Source: Caldithrix sp. (lineage in GTDB: Bacteria; Zhuqueibacterota; Zhuqueibacteria; Thermofontimicrobiales; Sulfurfontimicrobiaceae). Taken from it: a stretch of DNA of 64,000 bases. The position numbers were made by a program, and so were the translations under genes. The notes beneath the pieces were generated by a model. It had not been told where the DNA came from. It saw only the letters and a program-made list of their open reading frames with translations, and did no database searches. Below, in pieces: positions 2,309 to 45,294 of the stretch. Location: positions 55,840 through 119,839 of the forward strand of contig DYKB01000010.1 in the NCBI GenBank assembly GCA_020722815.1. The letters are read 5' to 3'. Each line of letters starts with the position of its first letter. Position 1 is the stretch's first letter.

Positions 2309-2477
2309 TTATTACATCTCCTAAAAGAAAACGATGTATTTGATATAAGCGTCACATCAAAAAGCCAATATAATCCCATAAATCCTGTTTTATCGCAAAT
2401 CTGAATAAACCCCAATACTCATCATTTTTTATCAATCGTTTCGATATTTTTGAGACGATATGATTCATCCAGATAAA

Positions 2478-4379
2478 CTAATTCGCCATAAAATCCCCCG
2501 GTAAAATGATGCGCTCCGGCTCAATTTCGGACATGGCTTTTTGAAATACATTTCTGTTAAATGGCGTAAATTTTTCTGGCGAGTGGACCCGGCTGATATA
2601 GACCATTTCGGGATTGATTGTGCCACCATGGCCGGAGAAATTTTCGATATTATAATTTATGCCACGGGTGCTGCTCTGCGTGGACCAATAACGCAGGCCG
2701 ATTATCTTGCCTTTTGTATCCGTTTGCCAGTTGATAAAAATCACCGAATGACCAGAGCCAGTGGTACGCCAGAACTGGACATAATCGCCTGGCCGGGCTT
2801 TTGTAAAATCTTCGATGCGATCGCCCAGTCCAAATGCTTTCAACGCCACACCAGGGCCATCGCCCCAGGTAGATTCAACAAACCAGAGTCGCAGGAAGTA
2901 GCGCAAATCGGTGGCGGTCATTTTATTAATATCTTCACCTTTTCCTAAATCCGAGTTCAATTGCTGGAGGGATCGAAAGAGATCCTCGAACGTTAGGCCA
3001 CAGCAGTAACAGCTTTTGCTCCCGTCCGGATTTGCCCGGGCAATGCGGACGCCTTTGTAATATATATCGCGGGTGACGCCTTCGTAGGTACCAACCCAGG
3101 AATAAGGATGGGTGCCATCACGCGGGTACGATTCAAGAATTTCCACACCATATTCATTAAAATCAATATCAAACGGCTGGCGAATGAAAAGAAAGATTGA
3201 ATCCATGACCCATATTTTTCGGTCATCCATCAACTGAAAATAGAGCGGGGCTTCAAACAGCTCGACAGGCGTTCCCTGAATCGTGCCATTTTCATAATTC
3301 AATCCGTTCGGCACCGCATTGAGAAGCTGCGAAGCAACATTGCCTTCATGATATTCAAAACGAAGCTGGTCTTTATATGGAATATTGAGGTAGCCGCGCC
3401 GCAGATTTTTTCCAATCAGACCTGGCCGGGGCGCTAAATCGAATAAAACTGTCAAATAAACAATTTTAAGTGAATTTATTTCCTGAATTTTCAGCAGTAC
3501 TTTTGGTAATTCTACTTTTTGATAGGTAATGGCAATCAGGCTATCGCTGGTAAAACTCCAGTTCATGGCACAATCTGAAGAAGAGATTTGAATGGGTCTT
3601 TCATAATAAATATCGAGTGTATCGGAGCGGGATTGTCCGGCCATGACCGAGATTGTGTCTGGACGAGTTCGGGCAAAAGGGTAAACATGAACTTTAATCT
3701 CACCGAGATTCAGCGAAGTACTGTCAGAAGGAATCATAAAAACGGCCGTCATTTCTTCCACATCCCGATCACTGATTTGAATTTTCAATTGATCAAATTC
3801 CAGGGATTTTGACAGAAAGCGGGGGGTCCGACTGACAAAATTATTCGCGGACAGAGCCGTATTGAGAAGACACATTTTGCCGGTTTTTATTTGATTATCG
3901 ATTTGAAAACGATAGCAATAGGTTCCAAATCCACAAGGTTCCCCCATTTCGTTTTTTCCATCCCACAAGAGCTGGTGCTCGCCGGGCAAAAAGGATTGCT
4001 CGGTAATTCGCCGCACCCTTTGTCCCAGAATATTAAAAATATCCAGCACCACCTGACTTTTCCGATACAACCTCAATGAAAAAGTCGTGGTACCATGAAA
4101 AGGATTTGGGTAATTGGGATGGAGGTAAAAATTTTGCAAAACAGGATTATCCGAAGGGATGCCTGTTCCAAAATTCAGTTTGAAATAGCCGGCATTATCG
4201 GTAAATCCGCGTCCCAGAACCTCGTCGTTTAAAGTTAAGGTAATATAGACACGATCCAACTTTTCAGTGGTTCCGCGGCCATTGACCAATTGAAAAGAAA
4301 TCGATTCAAGTCGTGCAAAGAGGTTGTTAAAATTAAGATAGAAAAAAAATATGATTAAAATCAGTTTGCGTAAATTCAT
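2478..4379 (-). CDS. Secreted protein with FlgD-like module and C-terminal Cys/His hydrolase-like domain
   Basis: 633 residues. The N-terminus (MNLRKLILIIFFFYLNF) is a signal peptide. Residues ~84-165 form a FlgD-like/T9SS-type beta module with the NYPNPF motif (89-94) and FNILGQRVRRI, which in FCB bacteria is normally at the very C-terminus; here it is internal. After a middle region without recognised domains, residues ~430-600 resemble an NlpC/P60 or CHAP-like fold: SKSCYCCGLTFEDL (Cys 457-460), then RPGDYVQFWR and GHSVIFINW (His 544). By analogy with those families, a Cys-His pair would cleave peptidoglycan stem peptides or another amide; the substrate is unknown. Start supported by GGAG six bases before the ATG. 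Function inference is moderate; secretion and the NYPNPF module are clear. Confidence 0.65.
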   Translation of the reverse strand: MNLRKLILIIFFFYLNFNNLFARLESISFQLVNGRGTTEKLDRVYITLTLNDEVLGRGFTDNAGYFKLNFGTGIPSDNPVLQNFYLHPNYPNPFHGTTTFSLRLYRKSQVVLDIFNILGQRVRRITEQSFLPGEHQLLWDGKNEMGEPCGFGTYCYRFQIDNQIKTGKMCLLNTALSANNFVSRTPRFLSKSLEFDQLKIQISDRDVEEMTAVFMIPSDSTSLNLGEIKVHVYPFARTRPDTISVMAGQSRSDTLDIYYERPIQISSSDCAMNWSFTSDSLIAITYQKVELPKVLLKIQEINSLKIVYLTVLFDLAPRPGLIGKNLRRGYLNIPYKDQLRFEYHEGNVASQLLNAVPNGLNYENGTIQGTPVELFEAPLYFQLMDDRKIWVMDSIFLFIRQPFDIDFNEYGVEILESYPRDGTHPYSWVGTYEGVTRDIYYKGVRIARANPDGSKSCYCCGLTFEDLFRSLQQLNSDLGKGEDINKMTATDLRYFLRLWFVESTWGDGPGVALKAFGLGDRIEDFTKARPGDYVQFWRTTGSGHSVIFINWQTDTKGKIIGLRYWSTQSSTRGINYNIENFSGHGGTINPEMVYISRVHSPEKFTPFNRNVFQKAMSEIEPERIILPGDFMAN

Positions 4380-4437
4380 TCTTGCTCCGATATTTTAATT
4401 TAATTCAACCATATTCATCATGAATCCGAAGTTAAAA

Positions 4438-4986
4438 TCAGGCGATTCGCCCCGGGTTAGGGACCTGGGGCGGGTCATCTGGTACTATTTTTACAGAAGT
4501 TGTCTCTTTGAAAAGACGAAATCCGCGGGCAAGATAATTCTTTAATGCAGCAGGATGGTCCAGCGTGCAGGTATGCAGCCAGACCCGTGCAGCTCCGGTT
4601 TTCCAGGCCCTATCAACTGCTTCAGTTAATAAATGCCCTCCCAGACCCTGGCCAAAAAATTGAGGGAGGATGCCAAAGTGGATAATTTCGATATTCCAGT
4701 CTGGCTGTTCCTCAAATTCAAAATATCCGGCCGGCGTCCCTTTAAAATAGAGGACCCAGGTATGAAATCCCGGCCGGCTCACCCACTCCCGCCACTGTTG
4801 ATACGTCCATTTGAGCAAATCGACCCAGAAATAGTCCCCCCCAACCGTCGCGTAAAAAAAACGATTGTATTCCGGCAGGGGAATTTCCACTTCCTTCAAT
4901 TCCAGTCCTGGTAAGTTGCTTTTCTTCGGACGAAATTGTTCCGGACTATTCAATTCCAGATAAAAAGTTTTAATTTCAACTTGCAT
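4438..4986 (-). CDS. GNAT-family N-acetyltransferase
   Basis: 182 residues with the GNAT core: WVLYFKGTPAGYFEFE (beta strands 2-4), then the acetyl-CoA-binding motif A around LPQFFGQGLGGHLLTEAV, and motif B (AARVWLHTCTLDHPAALKNYLARGFRLFKE). The family transfers an acetyl group from acetyl-CoA to an amine; substrate cannot be deduced. AGAGGAAAAT precedes the ATG. It stands alone between the secreted hydrolase and the divergent helicase gene. Confidence 0.85.
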   Translation of the reverse strand: MQVEIKTFYLELNSPEQFRPKKSNLPGLELKEVEIPLPEYNRFFYATVGGDYFWVDLLKWTYQQWREWVSRPGFHTWVLYFKGTPAGYFEFEEQPDWNIEIIHFGILPQFFGQGLGGHLLTEAVDRAWKTGAARVWLHTCTLDHPAALKNYLARGFRLFKETTSVKIVPDDPPQVPNPGRIA

Positions 4987-38400: not shown

Positions 38401-40167
38401 CTACCCCCGCTCCTTCAACCATCTTTCCATTAACGGAACCCGCAGCCGAAATTCACTATTTTCTTCTACCACCAGCAGCCGGCGTTTGAGGGAGCGATAG
38501 AGGGCCTCGTTGTCGGGGATAGGCTGACTGGCTTTGCGGCGAAAGGCGGCGAGATATTCCCACTCGCCGGAGAGTTTGCACTCGCCGTGCATGAGTTCAT
38601 AGAGCACATTATGCCCTTTTACGATGGATTGATTCAGGGCTTGTTCAAAAATAGTGTCGTCGGCCTGAGTTTTGTCGGAATCATTGACCAGATCCACAAT
38701 GGTTTCGGCAATGAGCTGCACCAGATGCGGCCAGCTGCCGGCCTGATTGTCGAAGCCGTTGAATGCCATTTTTGCCCCAAAACTCCGGCGTAAACCCGGC
38801 CGTTTGGGATCATCTTTTTTCCATTTTTCCGGCTTTAAATGATTATTCACAGCCTCCAGTATGTCGAAAATTGATTTTAATGAATCATCGGAACCAATAG
38901 TTATTTTCATCTCCAGTAAAATTCGGGTAAAATTTTCAGCCAGCAATTGATTCAAATCTTTAATGGATGTAAACGCCCGCGCGCTCTGCATGGAAATAAA
39001 AACCGATTTAACTGAAGGCGGTAAAAAACCACCCAGATTTTTTAAAATCGTGGTCTTGCCCATGCGCCGGCGGCCATACAGCACCAGTCCTGGACAACCG
39101 GTACTCAGCATGATTTGTTTTTCCAACTCTCCTACCACACGGTAGCGTGGAATAAAAGCTTCCTGTTCTCGACTCACTGGATCGCCAGCCCGGAAAACCT
39201 GCGGCGATACCTCTTTAGCGAGAATTGCTGCCACCTGTTCTTTTTGCTTTCGGGCAATTGCTAACCAGGCATTGGCAGCTTTACGAAATGCTGACACCAG
39301 TGGTTCCGCGAAGCCACCAATTTCATGAATAAAATTTTCGATTTGTACATAACGCTCTCTGGCCATGGGCGCTTTCAGAAAAGGACGGTTCATGGTCTCG
39401 ATCTGATGTTGTAACTGGCAAATCTCATGAACACCATCTTTAATCCGTCTGGTTTGCGTGAGAAAGCCTTTTTGACCTTCAGGTAATTGATTGATTAGAT
39501 TTTCAACATCGCAAATATTTTGGATTTTAGCGGTACTACGGGCAGTTAAGATGGTTTTGGCTTTTTGCGCTCCCCAACGCTGGGCGGGATAGCTATCAAT
39601 AATCCGTTCAATGGCGGCCTTCCCCTCCACCCTATTCGCTTCCACATGGGCAATTAACAGCCGTTCCAACCAAGGAAAAGGAACCGAACAGAGATCATCC
39701 CAATAAACCGGGTGAAATTTTATCAGGAAATTCTGGTAAGGGAATAAAAAGCTTAAATATATTGGAAGATAATAGAGTCTCAAATTTCCGATAATGAAGG
39801 ATATTCCAACAGCGTATCCTTCTTTGGTTCCAACTACCATGTTAACTAATATCCCCAAAAATATTCCAAACATGAGTCCTATAAAAATTTCGTAGATTCC
39901 CTCACGATTTTTAAAGGTAATCCTGATAATCAATCCTAAAGCGATACCAACAATAATTCCAATAAAGATTTTATTGCTACACTCCCAAGCTATCCCCATA
40001 GAAATTCCATCGCCGATTTCATAGACAAATATGTAAGTGATTTCTCCTATAAAGTTCATATTTTTTATTTTTATTATCTTTACTATATTCAAAATTTTAC
40101 TTATGGATATTCTGAAGATAGGGAATATTATAGGATTTACACAAATAGATACCAAAAAAAATTCCAA
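38401..40167 (-). CDS. STAND-like P-loop ATPase with N-terminal membrane helices (probably internally deleted)
   Basis: 588 residues in the longest frame; ATG at 40059 is another possible start. Residues ~65-145 contain Gly/Ile-rich membrane helices (IFIGIIVGIALGLII, FIGLMFGIFLGILVNMV). A conserved-looking segment FHPVYWDDLCSVPFPWLERL (151-170) and a helical region lead to Walker A GRRRMGKTTIL (365-375). The C-terminus (ALYRSLKRRLLVVEENSEFR ... ERWL) resembles the winged-helix end of STAND/AAA_16 ATPases. Between ~445 and ~475 the expected Walker B, sensor and Arg-finger region is absent: the chain goes almost directly from NNHLKPEKWKKDD to AGSWPHLVQLIAE, normally ~130 residues apart. It probably responds to a trigger with its TIR partner; the present copy may be inactive. 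Confidence 0.65.
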   Translation of the reverse strand: MEFFLVSICVNPIIFPIFRISISKILNIVKIIKIKNMNFIGEITYIFVYEIGDGISMGIAWECSNKIFIGIIVGIALGLIIRITFKNREGIYEIFIGLMFGIFLGILVNMVVGTKEGYAVGISFIIGNLRLYYLPIYLSFLFPYQNFLIKFHPVYWDDLCSVPFPWLERLLIAHVEANRVEGKAAIERIIDSYPAQRWGAQKAKTILTARSTAKIQNICDVENLINQLPEGQKGFLTQTRRIKDGVHEICQLQHQIETMNRPFLKAPMARERYVQIENFIHEIGGFAEPLVSAFRKAANAWLAIARKQKEQVAAILAKEVSPQVFRAGDPVSREQEAFIPRYRVVGELEKQIMLSTGCPGLVLYGRRRMGKTTILKNLGGFLPPSVKSVFISMQSARAFTSIKDLNQLLAENFTRILLEMKITIGSDDSLKSIFDILEAVNNHLKPEKWKKDDPKRPGLRRSFGAKMAFNGFDNQAGSWPHLVQLIAETIVDLVNDSDKTQADDTIFEQALNQSIVKGHNVLYELMHGECKLSGEWEYLAAFRRKASQPIPDNEALYRSLKRRLLVVEENSEFRLRVPLMERWLKERG

Positions 40168-40216
40168 TTACTAATCCTTTTAAATGAAATTTAAAATGAT
40201 CAAATAGCGTATTCAT
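40097..40216 (-). pseudogene. Displaced first membrane helix of the STAND-like protein
   Basis: A 39-codon frame starting ATG 40216 encodes MNTLFDHFKFHLKGLVIGIF then FGIYLC. Its Gly/Ile-rich helix has the same style as those inside the neighbouring ATPase, but in a different reading frame, and it overlaps that gene's first 71 bases. The simplest reading is that it is the true N-terminus of the ATPase, separated by a frameshift. It could alternatively be an independent micro-protein. No strong ribosome site is present. Confidence 0.4.
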
Positions 40217-40255
40217 TTCTGTATTTACATCAATTCCAATAACTTCATATATTAG

Positions 40256-40474
40256 TTATCTACAGATTATAATGAATAAAATCATCCATGGTATAAAATG
40301 GTAAAGTAATTTTACGCTACTAAAAATTATTTTTTGGTATCCTTGCTTCTGTATAATTGTGTCTAAATTATCATTAAACTGTGCTGGTTTTCGATACAGC
40401 AATCCCAACCACCATAACGCCAACTTATGACTCTCCCAATTCCAGCCAATTTGTTCCAATGGCAAAGGTTTCAT
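40256..40474 (-). CDS. Small membrane protein of the TIR cassette
   Basis: 72 residues. The N-terminal soluble part is distinctive (LEQIGWNWESHKLALWWLGL, YRKPAQFNDNLDTII) and the C-terminus is a membrane helix (LLYHFIPWMILFIIICR). Its ATG overlaps the stop codon of the TIR gene (ATGA, 40471-40474), which implies translational coupling and a shared function. It lies between the TIR gene and the membrane-anchored ATPase. No family is recognised with certainty. I infer a linker or membrane recruiter in the cassette. Confidence 0.65.
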   Translation of the reverse strand: MKPLPLEQIGWNWESHKLALWWLGLLYRKPAQFNDNLDTIIQKQGYQKIIFSSVKLLYHFIPWMILFIIICR

Positions 40475-41393
40475 GGCCGGCCTCCCAATTCAATATTGTT
40501 GGGAAAAAGGGCAGAAAGCGGGTGATTTCGTGGGATTAGATTAGCAAAATAATCTCGGGATTCCATCACCAGGACTAATTTCTTTTTATCGGTCACCAGA
40601 TTCCGCAAGGCAGCAAAAAAACGATGATCAGAGTAGGTGTCATATACTATCAGATCAAAATGGAGTATTTTCAGAAAGATTTGGTTTGGATGATTGGAAC
40701 AAAAACGATCTAACGATAATAAAGCATTCGTCTTCGTTATTTTATTAACCGTCCCACCGCAAGCTTTGATGATATCCTCAATGAGACCCGTCAAAGTTGA
40801 GGCCGAGCCTGCGGCCAGATCAACCTGTGCTAATTGAATTCTGTGTTCCTGTGATAAATCCATTTTCACCTGGCTTAATAATTCACGCCATCTGGGATGA
40901 TTTCGAATGACCAGATTTACAGATTCGTGCCGTCGCAGGCGACGTACCAATTCATCCCGCACTCTAAGCCAATCCGGCACGGTACATCCTAAATTTACGT
41001 CACAGGGCTTTAAGAGCAAATCCCATTTTTCAGCCAATTTATCATTGGTTAAATCAATCCAGATTGGCGGATTTGTTTGAAAAGGCGCCGGCAAAGCACA
41101 GCTTTCCCGCATCACCGGAATCACTTTCCCGTCTTTAAATTGCGGATCCAGTGCAATCGCCCGGTTCATTTCATGCAGACAATAAGGGCTGGCTAAATAA
41201 TCAGGCGAAAAGACCAGAATCGACAGATCAGCCTGATCCTGGTATTTATCCATCTGGCCAATAGCGGACTGGCCTGAAAGTGCTGGTAATCGATAATCAC
41301 TCCCGCGCCGCCGGCTTCCAGGCAGGAAACTAATCTTTTTTTGACCCATTCTTTCGGTTCATGTTTGTAGCTGATAAAGACTTTTTTCGCCAT
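40471..41393 (-). pseudogene. TIR-domain protein with STAND-associated C-terminal extension, frameshifted
   Basis: The first frame (ATG 41393, behind GGAGGG) gives MAKKVFISYKHEPKEWVKKR ... GVIIDYQHFQ; from ~41274 the protein continues one base back in another frame with GQMDKYQDQADLSILVFSPD, YLASPYCLHEMNRAIA. Together these form a complete TIR domain, with the candidate catalytic Glu of NADase-type TIRs in YCLHEM. After the TIR (~135 residues) comes an extension: VNLVIRNHPRWRELL, VDLAAGSASTLTGLIEDIIK and a terminal part with FDLIVYDTYSDHRFFAALRN and KKLVLVMESRDYF, similar in layout to proteins paired with STAND ATPases. The total would be ~306 residues. A single-base loss or sequencing error separates the frames. 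It probably consumes NAD+ or signals when triggered. Confidence 0.75.
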
Positions 41394-41733: not shown

Positions 41734-42156
41734 ATGACCGTACGGGATATTCGCTGGATTCAAAGATTTAATCATTTTAATCAGGCCTTTTTTCAATTAA
41801 AAGATGCTGTGGAACTTTCACAGCAACGTCCACTCTCGAAACTCGAAGCACAGGGATTGATTCAAGCGTTTGAATATACTCATGAACTGGCCTGGAATAC
41901 GTTGAAGGATTTTCTCGAAAGCCGGGGTACTCGTCTTTACGCTTCTAAAGATACAACTCGTGAGGCTTTTAAAAGCGGGCTGATTGAAAATGGCGAGGTA
42001 TGGATGGATATGATGAAAAGCCGTAATCTGACTTCCCATACCTATAATGAACCTGTTTCACAAAAAGTCATTTCAGCGATCCTCGATAGTTATTTTATGG
42101 AATTTAAGGTTTTTCAACTCAAATTTAGTCAATTACAAAACGAAGAACAAGCATGA
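41734..42156 (+). CDS. hepT: HepT-like HEPN RNase toxin
   Basis: 140 residues, all-helical HEPN domain. The catalytic RX4HXY motif is present as RNLTSHTY (~residues 97-104). FEYTHELAWNTLKDFLES is typical of the HI0074 'nucleotidyltransferase substrate-binding' group. HepT is an RNase that degrades RNA or tRNA unless AMPylated at the motif Tyr by MntA. It overlaps the next gene by ATGA (42153-42156), as is usual for the pair. GAGGAG precedes the start and a good promoter lies at 41667-41695. This is one of the few intact modules of the island. Confidence 0.9.
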   Translation: MTVRDIRWIQRFNHFNQAFFQLKDAVELSQQRPLSKLEAQGLIQAFEYTHELAWNTLKDFLESRGTRLYASKDTTREAFKSGLIENGEVWMDMMKSRNLTSHTYNEPVSQKVISAILDSYFMEFKVFQLKFSQLQNEEQA

Positions 42157-42473
42157 AATACGGCGTAAAAGAAGAAATTATCCAAAAAATTTCCGCTGTC
42201 TTTGCCCGGTATCCGCAGGTGGAAAGAGCAGTGTTGTATGGCTCCCGTGCTAAAGATAACTTCAAAAATGGCTCGGATATTGACCTGACCTTACATGGTG
42301 ATGAAGACCTGACACTTCAAGTACTCTACCAAATCATGGATGAGCTCGATAATTTGCTCCTGCCTTATACGATTGATCTGTCCATTTTTCGGGATATTAG
42401 CGATTTGGATTTGGTTGAGCGTATTCAGCGGGTAGGAGTGGTGTTTTATGAGAAGGAAAAGGAAATGATTTAA
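42153..42473 (+). CDS. mntA: MntA-like nucleotidyltransferase antitoxin
   Basis: 106 residues of the minimal nucleotidyltransferase (MNT) type. The signature GSX10DXD is exact: GSRAKDNFKNGSDIDLTL, followed by the third acidic strand TIDLSIFRDI. MntA uses ATP to AMPylate the Tyr in the RX4HXY motif of HepT, switching the toxin off. It is translated by overlap with hepT. Such modules stabilise genomic regions and some act against phages. Confidence 0.9.
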   Translation: MKYGVKEEIIQKISAVFARYPQVERAVLYGSRAKDNFKNGSDIDLTLHGDEDLTLQVLYQIMDELDNLLLPYTIDLSIFRDISDLDLVERIQRVGVVFYEKEKEMI

Positions 42474-42566
42474 ACAAATTTCCTCTGGAGAAGGAACTAT
42501 TTTATCACCTATCCCGCTGAACTATGAACTGCCAGTGTATAAAAGCCTGCAATTAAGGATAGCACC

Positions 42567-42748
42567 TTAGGAGCGTTGAAAAAACCGAATAACGCTTTGA
42601 AGTCGGATTGAATCTCCATGATATTGCCTTCTGAGATGTTCAACAGCAGCGATTCGTTCTTAAGGTGTTTTTGTTTGCCAGTACGCTAAATTTTCGGCAA
42701 TTTCATTTGAATCGTGGATATTTTTTTGGTTACGATTTTTTTTATCAT
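42567..42748 (-). pseudogene. Broken small antitoxin-like gene
   Basis: Read leftwards from ATG 42748 through an A7 run, the frame gives IHDSNEIAENLAYWQTKTP, an in-frame TAA, then ERIAAVEHLRRQYHGDSIRL and QSVIRFFQRS-stop. The pattern YWxxKTPxERxAAVExLRRQY is that of a small conserved protein commonly encoded next to nucleotidyltransferase-type toxins. An internal stop and a frameshift near the start make it non-functional. No partner toxin gene remains on that strand. The rest of the 42474-42825 gap shows nothing. Confidence 0.55.
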
Positions 42749-42825
42749 GAATGGTGCCCTATTAATTGACAATTTAATTAAAAACAGTCTAAAAGTTGTC
42801 AATTGGATTCTATTGTGAGATTAGC

Positions 42826-43542
42826 TTATTTTATCACGCTTTGAATAATCTGTTTGATATATTCCGGGACAGTTTTGTTTGATTCTTTGGCATCTGTTTT
42901 TAGTTTTTCATATTGTTCTATCTCTTTTCCCTGCCAGATTAAATCAACTCGCCGCACTTGCTGCATAGCAACATGAAAATATTTTTCTGGATACGCCCAG
43001 TAACAGGAGAGACAAATTTCTTTTTTTCTCAGTGTTTGCCAATTTTCACAATGCTCACACGACCATGACTTTAAGCGATTGGCTGAACCGGATAACAACA
43101 TAAAATCATCTGGTAATAATTCACTGCTTTCGCCTTCAACTTCATAAGAAACACGATGATCAATCTGAAGTACACTTTTATCCATGACTTCAAGATAGAT
43201 AAAACATTTACAGCCATACTTTTCTATCAGATCGTCTTTAATTTTCCTTGAGAGATCGGTACGTCCGGATAGTTTTTTAAAACGCTTCTTGCTTATATCA
43301 CCAAACCGATATGCCGCTATTTTCCTGCCATCAGAACCGGTGACACGAAACGTTTCAAGTGGAATTCCATGCTCGTGGACATCCCGATTTGCTCTGGGGG
43401 GATGATTATACCCATATTTTTCTTTTAATTCTTCGGTGGTGATGTGTCCATGCTTTAAAATATGTTCGATAACAGTTTTGGGACGCTTCGCTGTGACTGA
43501 ATTGCATAGTTCAAGAAATTCATTTGGGTATTTTTGTGCCAT
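42826..43542 (-). CDS. HNH-type restriction endonuclease
   Basis: 238 residues. The N-terminus has a helix-turn-helix-like region (VIEHILKHGHITTEELKEKY). The HNH nuclease core is VLQIDHRVSYEVEGESSELL followed by FMLLSGSANRLKSW (the N of HNH), with a zinc knuckle: SCEHCENW (C-X2-C) and ICLSCYW (C-X2-C). Its overlap of 23 nt with the adenine methylase gene and shared strand identify it as the restriction partner. HNH-type type II enzymes exist for several recognition sites; the site is not readable from sequence. GGGAG is immediately upstream of the ATG. Confidence 0.82.
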   Translation of the reverse strand: MAQKYPNEFLELCNSVTAKRPKTVIEHILKHGHITTEELKEKYGYNHPPRANRDVHEHGIPLETFRVTGSDGRKIAAYRFGDISKKRFKKLSGRTDLSRKIKDDLIEKYGCKCFIYLEVMDKSVLQIDHRVSYEVEGESSELLPDDFMLLSGSANRLKSWSCEHCENWQTLRKKEICLSCYWAYPEKYFHVAMQQVRRVDLIWQGKEIEQYEKLKTDAKESNKTVPEYIKQIIQSVIK

Positions 43543-44458
43543 AACTCCCTTTTTCTTCCATTAAAACGAGTTGTTTAGCCTCATTTTTTTTATGAAAATA
43601 CGGAAAAGCAGCAACTTCCTGGGCTAATCGTGGTGATAAATATAAGGACTCGACCGTAACGGCGTCTCGCCTGAGTAAGGTAGCTTGTGAAGACCGGCCG
43701 GCTTCCAGTTCAATTAAAGTCAACGAAAGGCTTTCAGGTAAGCGCGTATCAAAGGTCTTGTTTCCTGTCCGACCATCATAACTAACGGCATAACGAATAT
43801 GACGAGTATTCAACTCCTTGAGTGCTGTCACAAATTCATCATACTGTATACCCGAAAAATAGCGGGAATCTCTGTCGCCACAGACTCCTTGATATGGGGG
43901 ATCCATGTATACCACATCATCCTCATTGATATTTAATAATATGGCCTTGTAGTCGAGTGAGGATATTATCGCTTTTCCTTTTAAAAGCGAAGAAACGCCA
44001 TAAATATTTTCCCGCATTGTTGAAGGCTGGGTTCCAAGTCGTCGTTTATCAGGACTTTGATTAAAAAGCCCCTCCGTATTATAGCGCACAGAGCCTTTCA
44101 CACAACGCGCAAGCAAATACAAAAATAATCTGGCGTCACCTGTTCGGTTGAAATTCTCTCTAATCTGATAATAATGTTCTATCGAGTTATTATGCTGTTG
44201 ATTCCATAGTTTTTCGTAAAAATCAGCTATTTCAACCGGATGATTGATGATAAGTTCTAGTAATTCCATGAGAGATTTATTTAAGTCATTTATCCAATAG
44301 GCGTTCGTTTTATTTCGTGCGGCGCAGGCGATTGAAATAGCAGCAGTTCCTGCGAAAGGCTCTACAAGTCGCGGGAATTTATGGGGTAAGTACCGAAGAA
44401 TAGTTGATGCAAGAACTCTTTTGCTCCCTTGATATTGTATTGGATGTGGAAGTTTCAT
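43520..44458 (-). CDS. D12-class adenine-N6 DNA methyltransferase
   Basis: 312 residues. Typical Dam/D12 motifs: IQYQGSKRVLASTILRYLP (N-terminal), SAM-binding VEPFAGTAAISIACAA, and catalytic DVVYMDPPYQGVC (DPPY). The target-recognition part lies between ~60 and ~170. It modifies adenine in the recognition site and so protects the host from the HNH enzyme encoded downstream (overlap 43520-43542). AAGG precedes the ATG, and the stop of a truncated addiction-module gene lies within this ribosome site, suggesting that the R-M pair replaced the 3' part of an older toxin-antitoxin gene. Confidence 0.9.
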   Translation of the reverse strand: MKLPHPIQYQGSKRVLASTILRYLPHKFPRLVEPFAGTAAISIACAARNKTNAYWINDLNKSLMELLELIINHPVEIADFYEKLWNQQHNNSIEHYYQIRENFNRTGDARLFLYLLARCVKGSVRYNTEGLFNQSPDKRRLGTQPSTMRENIYGVSSLLKGKAIISSLDYKAILLNINEDDVVYMDPPYQGVCGDRDSRYFSGIQYDEFVTALKELNTRHIRYAVSYDGRTGNKTFDTRLPESLSLTLIELEAGRSSQATLLRRDAVTVESLYLSPRLAQEVAAFPYFHKKNEAKQLVLMEEKGSYGTKIPK

Positions 44459-44466
44459 GTTATACC

Positions 44467-44601
44467 TTAAATATTTTTTTCTATTTCAGTAAGTTCTATA
44501 GATTCAGCATCTGCGGCAATACTGTCCCGGTTATCTTCAACCAACTGGATACGTTCGGGTATTGAAAGCATTAAAGTATCGGTAACTGAAATTTTTTTCA
44601 T
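44467..44601 (-). pseudogene. Truncated addiction-module component (TIGR02574-like)
   Basis: A 44-codon frame from ATG 44601: MKKISVTDTLMLSIPERIQL, then VEDNRDSIAADAESIELTEI, EKNI-stop. The segment ERIQLVEDxxDSIAAxxExxxLTExE matches the N-terminal two thirds of the small antitoxin-like 'putative addiction module component' family, normally ~70-75 residues. It stops just where the methylase gene begins (8 bases before its ATG). It is too short for the ordinary automatic gene-length cut-off. The corresponding RelE-type toxin was not found beside it. Confidence 0.6.
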
Positions 44602-44671
44602 TTTAGTCAGTCAAATATTGAAATTACGATGTTAGAGTCGTGTGTCCATTAAACCGACATGATTATAATAT

Positions 44672-44947
44672 TCAGGAAATTGATAAATTAAGTTTTCTCC
44701 CAATCGCTTCTAAATAATTTTTGAGAGTCGAAAGCCGAATATCTTCTGAGTGATTTTCTATCCGCGAAATAGCCGATTTTTTAGTCTTTAATTTTTGAGC
44801 CAATTCTTCCTGTGTAATGCCAGCCGCTTCCCTGGCCTGACGTAAAAGCACACCGATTTTAAAGCCTTCGTATCCCTCTTCAAAATTATTTTCAAAGGTT
44901 GAATTTCGTTCTTTTCTATTTTTGATATATTTTTCCAGATCGTCCAT
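44672..44947 (-). CDS. higA: HigA-like XRE-family antitoxin
   Basis: 91 residues. The C-terminal HTH_3/XRE domain is clear: [58 protein letters not shown]. The start at 44947 has AAGGAGGAAAGCACG upstream. It is the downstream partner of the HigB-like toxin frame, the order (toxin first) being usual for HigBA. It would bind both the toxin and the operon operator. The toxin frame runs into this gene by 160 nt in another frame. Confidence 0.88.
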
Positions 44948-45294
44948 CGTGCTTTCCTCCTTAAATAATCTTTCTTACGTTGTTCGGCGAGTAATATTTC
45001 TTGGTTTGGCGTTTTCTGGCTCTTTTTTGCAAACCCATTCGTTAGTATAATAAAATTCCTGTCATCGAAGAAGCCAAGAATTCGATAATTATTTTTTCCA
45101 AAACTTATCCTTGCTTCCCCAATATCATCAGTACTTGTTAATTTTTTAAAATATTCCTTTGGTATTCTTTCCAGTTCTTTTATCAATCTCAGAACCCATA
45201 AAACCCGCGTAACTTGCCTGTCATCCAACGAATCCAGAAACTCTTCAACAGGGCATTTTCCGTACGCTGTACGATAGAATATTATTTCTCGTAT
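44788..45294 (-). pseudogene. higB: HigB/RelE-like toxin lacking a normal start codon and stop
   Basis: The family N-terminus (xREIIFYRTAYGKCPVEEFL, DSLDDRQVTRVLWVLRLIKE, LERIPKEYFKKLTSTDDIGE) is preserved but the codon in the Met position is ATA (45292-45294), preceded four codons upstream by an in-frame TAA. The first TTG (45228) would remove about 22 residues of the fold. At the other end the natural finish ([13 protein letters not shown]) is not followed by a stop; the frame runs another ~50 codons through higA. Unless ATA is used as a start, little toxin should be made. HigB-type toxins cleave ribosome-bound mRNA. Confidence 0.7.

Follow-up and report, generated by a model that had tools for sequence, protein, structure and literature searches.

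A probably decayed TIR/ATPase operon in Caldithrix sp. and its intact two-gene relatives in other bacteria

The window analyzed here (the whole 64,000-nucleotide stretch of a Caldithrix sp. contig) contains on its minus strand, between positions 41393 and 38401, three visible open frames, which raise the question of whether they constitute a working cassette of three genes. The first-pass annotation read them as a TIR protein, a small membrane protein and a membrane-anchored STAND ATPase. The three open frames are indeed there, but the three genes are not: relatives of this locus possess two, and the middle frame of 72 codons corresponds to the N-terminus of their ATPase. Our preferred reading, to which we assign a probability of roughly 85%, is that the locus is a pseudo-operon, the decayed remnant of a two-gene TIR/ATPase operon, and the window copies of both genes probably make no active product.

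The intact organization consists of two overlapping genes, which encode a TIR protein with a C-terminal domain of ~160 aa and a single ATPase of ~760–790 aa. Relatives were identified in a Nitrosovibrio MAG (L019), in a Methylococcaceae MAG (L018), in genomes of the two orders to which these belong, and in other KSB1 MAGs. In L019 the TIR gene (1420-2334, 304 aa) is followed by the ATPase gene (2331-4715, 794 aa) with a GTGA overlap. The L019 ATPase begins with MRILSLSQLGPGWRSHLSALYWLGLLYRRPQRF, and this start is common to L018, L047, L057 and L058, fused in each case to the remainder of the ATPase; the intact pair is seen in L019, L047 and L057, with the intact ATPase start additionally present in L018 and L058. 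The ATPase opens with a "WNWESHK..LALWWLGLLYRKP" segment, followed by Gly/Ile-rich membrane helices; a helical linker then leads to a STAND/ORC-like ATPase and a winged-helix-like end. The partner of the TIR gene is this ATPase in every locus with a visible neighbor, and the two adjoin one another repeatedly in unrelated genomes; judged from sequence, they form a genuine TIR/STAND-type two-component system. The recurrence anticipated by the first-pass annotation is therefore borne out for the TIR protein and the ATPase, but not for the 72-aa protein as a separate gene. G078 has the two genes on separate contigs: that of the TIR gene reaches as far as the ATPase start, and that of the ATPase opens within the Gly/Ile repeats. 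The pair is thus probably contiguous in this genome as well. The TIR/ATPase junction of G078 (L014, 3236-3241) reads ATCA, not ATGA, so that neither the ATPase start nor the TIR stop is preserved, and an in-frame stop comes next in the ATPase frame; this reflects decay or else an error at the contig end. L018 carries at 1323-2552 a tandem array of ~3.9 copies with a period of 314 bases, each copy comprising the ATPase 5' end and an interspersed repeat, and the final copy is the true, fused start of the ATPase gene. A wider family includes single-gene ATPases with other Gly/Ile/Leu-rich membrane domains (L010, 3856-6048; L037-L045), beside which no TIR gene was seen within the short flanks examined; in L010 another ATPase gene lies immediately upstream.

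Analysis of the phylogenetic distribution reveals that the TIR protein is rare and scattered. It is present in 2 of the 82 genomes of the window's phylum, in 6/301 genomes of one order and 2/397 of another, and in a single one of 399 sampled Pseudomonadota, namely the query genome itself. The ATPase or a distant relative occurs in 4/82 genomes of the window's phylum, the window genome included. No relative of the ATPase was found in viral contigs, nor in plasmid and phage records searched by tblastn (E<=1e-8) with a related KSB1 ATPase.

The TIR domain with a C-terminal extension of ~170 residues that had been proposed for the window is confirmed by a match to PF13676 (E 2e-20, 73.9 bits against a cut-off of 28, with the two frames joined by X; the rear frame alone scores 44.9 bits). 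The catalytic Glu of the SxxYxxSxxCxxE helix is invariant in eight aligned sequences, including that of the window; the NADase motif is present, and the domain is predicted to act as a NADase. Searches of Pfam with the C-terminal domain revealed nothing convincing. AlphaFold predicts for it an alpha/beta fold (pLDDT 55 overall and mostly 55-80 in this part, from a shallow alignment), and the top PDB matches of this low-confidence model in Foldseek are AAA+/ORC proteins. Profile-profile comparison with hhalign aligned the domain with the ATPase core of the partner (E 2.2e-5, probability 76%), collinearly from strand 2 to strand 5, with the Walker B and sensor positions included, while the region equivalent to the P-loop shows a conserved WR and no GK[ST]. 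Both the profile alignment and the model suggest that the domain is apparently a dead relative of the partner's ATPase core. As to the ATPase itself, AAA_22 scores above its cut-off in three intact relatives, and the fold matches of a low-confidence model comprise ORC, the plant NLR NRC3, Avs3 and MalT; a PDB sequence search with the ATPase profile gave no match. Its putative winged-helix C-terminus, a region where the model confidence is too low, has a conserved RRRLL...RVPLMxRWL end. The structure predictions drew on the window and L016-L019 sequences in shallow alignments, and the two models are of low confidence (the second with pLDDT 51).

No system-specific model in PADLOC or NCBIfam covers the TIR C-terminal domain or the ATPase, and among open-licence papers we found none on the TIR-ATPase pair. 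The TIR region alone matches Thoeris ThsB and TIR antiphage proteins (PADLOC ThsB, bSEFIR; E 2.5e-7 and 1.9e-8, respectively), but, unlike in Thoeris, the ThsA (SIR2/Macro/SLOG) partner is absent beside the TIR gene, and the C-terminal domain has no library match. Inactive STAND-type domains beside TIR effectors, together with membrane segments, were described in iSTAND and STAND-based NTP-dependent conflict systems, which are vWA-MoxR ternary systems (Kaur et al. 2020, eLife, PMC7159879). The same three elements are found here in a multi-gene locus; however, neither a vWA nor a MoxR gene is seen, and the TIR protein itself carries the inactive domain, which resembles the partner's own ATPase core. 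Like the STAND/ORC-Cdc6-like ATPases (ORC, NRC3, Avs3, MalT), the intact relatives possess Walker A and B and, putatively, a winged-helix-like end, but they differ from them in the N-terminal Gly/Ile-rich membrane domain; none of the Avs or NACHT family models scored above cut-off for the ATPase.

The composition of the related loci varies. In L055 two TIR proteins are encoded in tandem, and the ATPase has no membrane domain; L056 contains an additional TIR gene, and an N-terminal MinD/ParA-like domain substitutes for the membrane domain of its ATPase. This MinD/ParA-like domain matches the PADLOC candidate PDC-M28B (MinD-like, E 1e-24), but, unlike in PDC-M28B, it is fused to the ATPase, and it is absent from the window. 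The L056 (7180-11476) and L057 (291-3592) loci share both flanks at a DNA identity of 90-94%; the TIR genes agree over their first ~630 bases (85%) and the ATPase genes over their last ~950 (87%), with nothing common in between. L059 (7973-12971) agrees with them in the TIR start (83%), in the ATPase end (89%) and, over part of its length, in the downstream flank (92%); its middle is taken up by a DUF4276-like gene and one for a HEC-01A-like ATPase. Since the ends are conserved and the middles exchanged, this suggests that the middles were replaced by recombination between conserved ends.

From domain homology we infer co-assembly, NADase activity and an immune role, and we tentatively propose that the intact pair is an ATP-gated TIR immune switch. 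The membrane ATPase would serve as sensor or scaffold and would exchange nucleotide upon a trigger; it could then assemble with the TIR protein via contacts between the active and the dead ATPase, which would cluster the TIR domains, and the clustered domains would cleave NAD+ or generate a NAD-derived signal, leading to cell shutdown. An immune role as such is likely, by association of the domain types. It is unlikely that the pair is non-immune, with the ATPase in a housekeeping or stress-regulating role and the TIR protein as its scaffold. Such a role would fit the flanks of L018, L019, L047 and L055-L058, which hold mostly housekeeping genes, and the related GI/GL-rich membrane ATPases that occur without a TIR gene; however, the TIR catalytic motif is kept, and both the sporadic distribution given above and the swapping of modules, in which a HEC-01A-like defence gene has taken over part of one locus, are usual for conflict systems. 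The phage-defence neighbors expected in the first pass are found to a weak extent, beside the window locus (a type II restriction-modification system and a toxin-antitoxin pair) and inside L059, the other loci being mostly in housekeeping surroundings. In the window, the region 41734-45228 beside the broken operon is a small defence/TA cluster of intact genes: an HI0074/HI0073-type nucleotidyltransferase pair (NTase_sub_bind and Pol-beta; 41734..42473, plus strand), a type II restriction enzyme with a Dam-family methyltransferase (42826..44458, minus strand), and a HigB-like toxin (Gp49) with an HTH antitoxin (44672..45228, minus strand).

The window copy of the operon, which had been taken for a working TIR/STAND conflict cassette, represents a recurring system of that kind but probably does not work as one itself, for it shows at least six lesions across the TIR and ATPase genes, four of which are small indels. 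Residues 1-41 of the TIR protein (MAKKVFISYKH...IDYQHFQA) are encoded at 41271..41393 on the minus strand, from an ATG at 41393 in frame 1, and this frame leaves the TIR sequence after residue ~41. The remainder (40471..41268, minus strand), with the SPDYLASPYCLHE catalytic-Glu motif and the ~160-aa P-loop-less ATPase-like C-terminal domain, lies in a shifted frame. All six intact TIR proteins used as tblastn queries were split in this way, with one frame covering residues ~1-40, a second one the remainder, and the break at ~41270, between FQA and GQSAIGQMD (41268..41279, minus strand). Hence the TIR frame is not intact in this genome, there is no single continuous TIR ORF, and the earlier placement of its end at 41393 implies that the two frames had been joined.

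The ATPase gene is broken more extensively. A nonsense codon lies at 40258-40256, and the frame changes between a T8 run (40161-40154) and position 40017. The rest of the gene (38401..40167, minus strand) is a 588-aa frame that has no ATG and opens at a TTG beside the T8 run; it carries hydrophobic Gly/Ile-rich segments of a degenerate membrane region, the helical linker, Walker A (GRRRMGKT, 39075-39052, minus strand) and the winged-helix-like end. The Gly/Ile-rich segments, Walker A and the winged-helix-like end had been recognized correctly, but the ATPase is not intact, as an in-frame deletion of ~92 codons (junction at 38820..38827, minus strand) has removed the sensor strand and Walker B (LLLAIDEYEN); both are present in G056, G078, G080, L018 and L019, and the DEYE of the relatives is missing from the window ATPase. 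Further downstream, the ORF is in the wrong frame for ~57 bases (38747..38803, minus strand): translation in the alternate one, RPGFTPEFWGKNGIQRL, has 9-12/17 identities to the relatives versus 2-3/17 for the frame of the ORF, which implies, at the level of sequence comparison, a compensating pair of frameshifts. No direct repeats were found at the deletion and frameshift sites. The membrane-domain remnant (39790-40260) is strongly AT-rich, with 28% G+C vs 42% in the window.

Could the window nevertheless hold a working two-gene system, with the frame breaks as sequencing or assembly errors? We regard this as improbable. The genome is a draft of 247 contigs, one break is near the T8 run, and the four small indels could be assembly errors; this is unlikely, however, for the ~92-codon deletion of Walker B, which like the in-frame TAA is atypical of read errors, or for lesions confined to this locus. 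The neighboring genes (restriction-modification, HI0073/HI0074-type, HigBA-like, MFS, ABC transporter) match their own families over most of their length, and ten further TIR matches of this genome each lie in one frame, the window TIR domain alone being split over two; because these are unbroken, decay of the locus is a more likely cause than poor assembly. Related loci are broken too: the TIR gene of L058 has a stop and a frameshift, and L059 is interrupted, its middle being replaced by other genes. The other TIR_2 domains of the window genome are found in about ten frames on contigs C33, C140, C229, C30, C17, C183, C60 and C97; C140 has two adjacent TIR genes, and C30 a TIR_2 domain in a 2120-aa frame.

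The 72-aa ORF (40256..40474, minus strand) had been put forward as a separate membrane protein and potential conserved marker of the system. Its position and its start, which overlaps the TIR stop as ATGA, were described correctly. However, its sequence matches the L019 ATPase at residues 1-62 (E 1.1e-14), and beyond its TAA (40256-40258) another 52 codons are open in the same frame (40097..40255, minus strand); these continue the ATPase membrane domain and still align with the relatives' ATPase. The alignment with the L057 ATPase crosses the TAA (..ILFIIICR*LIYEVIGIDV.. vs ..LLLIFASRWLLFVLLGLEM..), extends to the T8 run, where the frame is lost, and resumes in a third frame. In all five loci with a visible ATPase start (L018, L019, L047, L057, L058) the segment forms one continuous frame with the rest of the ATPase, and in none of them is it a separate gene. 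By homology, the 72-aa ORF is the truncated N-terminus of the ATPase, cut by an in-frame TAA, and its status as a third gene is contradicted by the fusions and by the homology through the TAA. A true three-gene cassette, for which the ATG at the TIR stop and the hydrophobic C-terminus of the ORF could be quoted, is scarcely credible on these grounds, and the ATPase that would remain lacks Walker B. Equally far-fetched is recoding by programmed frameshifts and readthrough to full-length TIR and ATPase proteins: the ATPase frame does change at a T8 run, a classic site of slippage, but several separate events of differing types would be required, none conserved in the relatives, and the deleted Walker B would stay missing.

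Recognition of the locus as a probable pseudo-operon corrects a tempting misreading, in which the truncated end of a gene mimics a new conserved small protein. It also draws attention to an intact pair elsewhere in bacteria, outside the defence libraries, whose TIR protein and ATPase appear to share an ancestral ATPase core. More tentative even than the switch mechanism taken alone is the fuller reading that the intact relatives are an undescribed immune switch, in which a dead/active ATPase assembly would gate TIR at the membrane and whole modules would be exchanged between fixed ends. Such exchange hints at how loci of this kind diversify, and the combination of one dead and one active core offers a testable idea of how bacterial TIR effectors may be held off and switched on.
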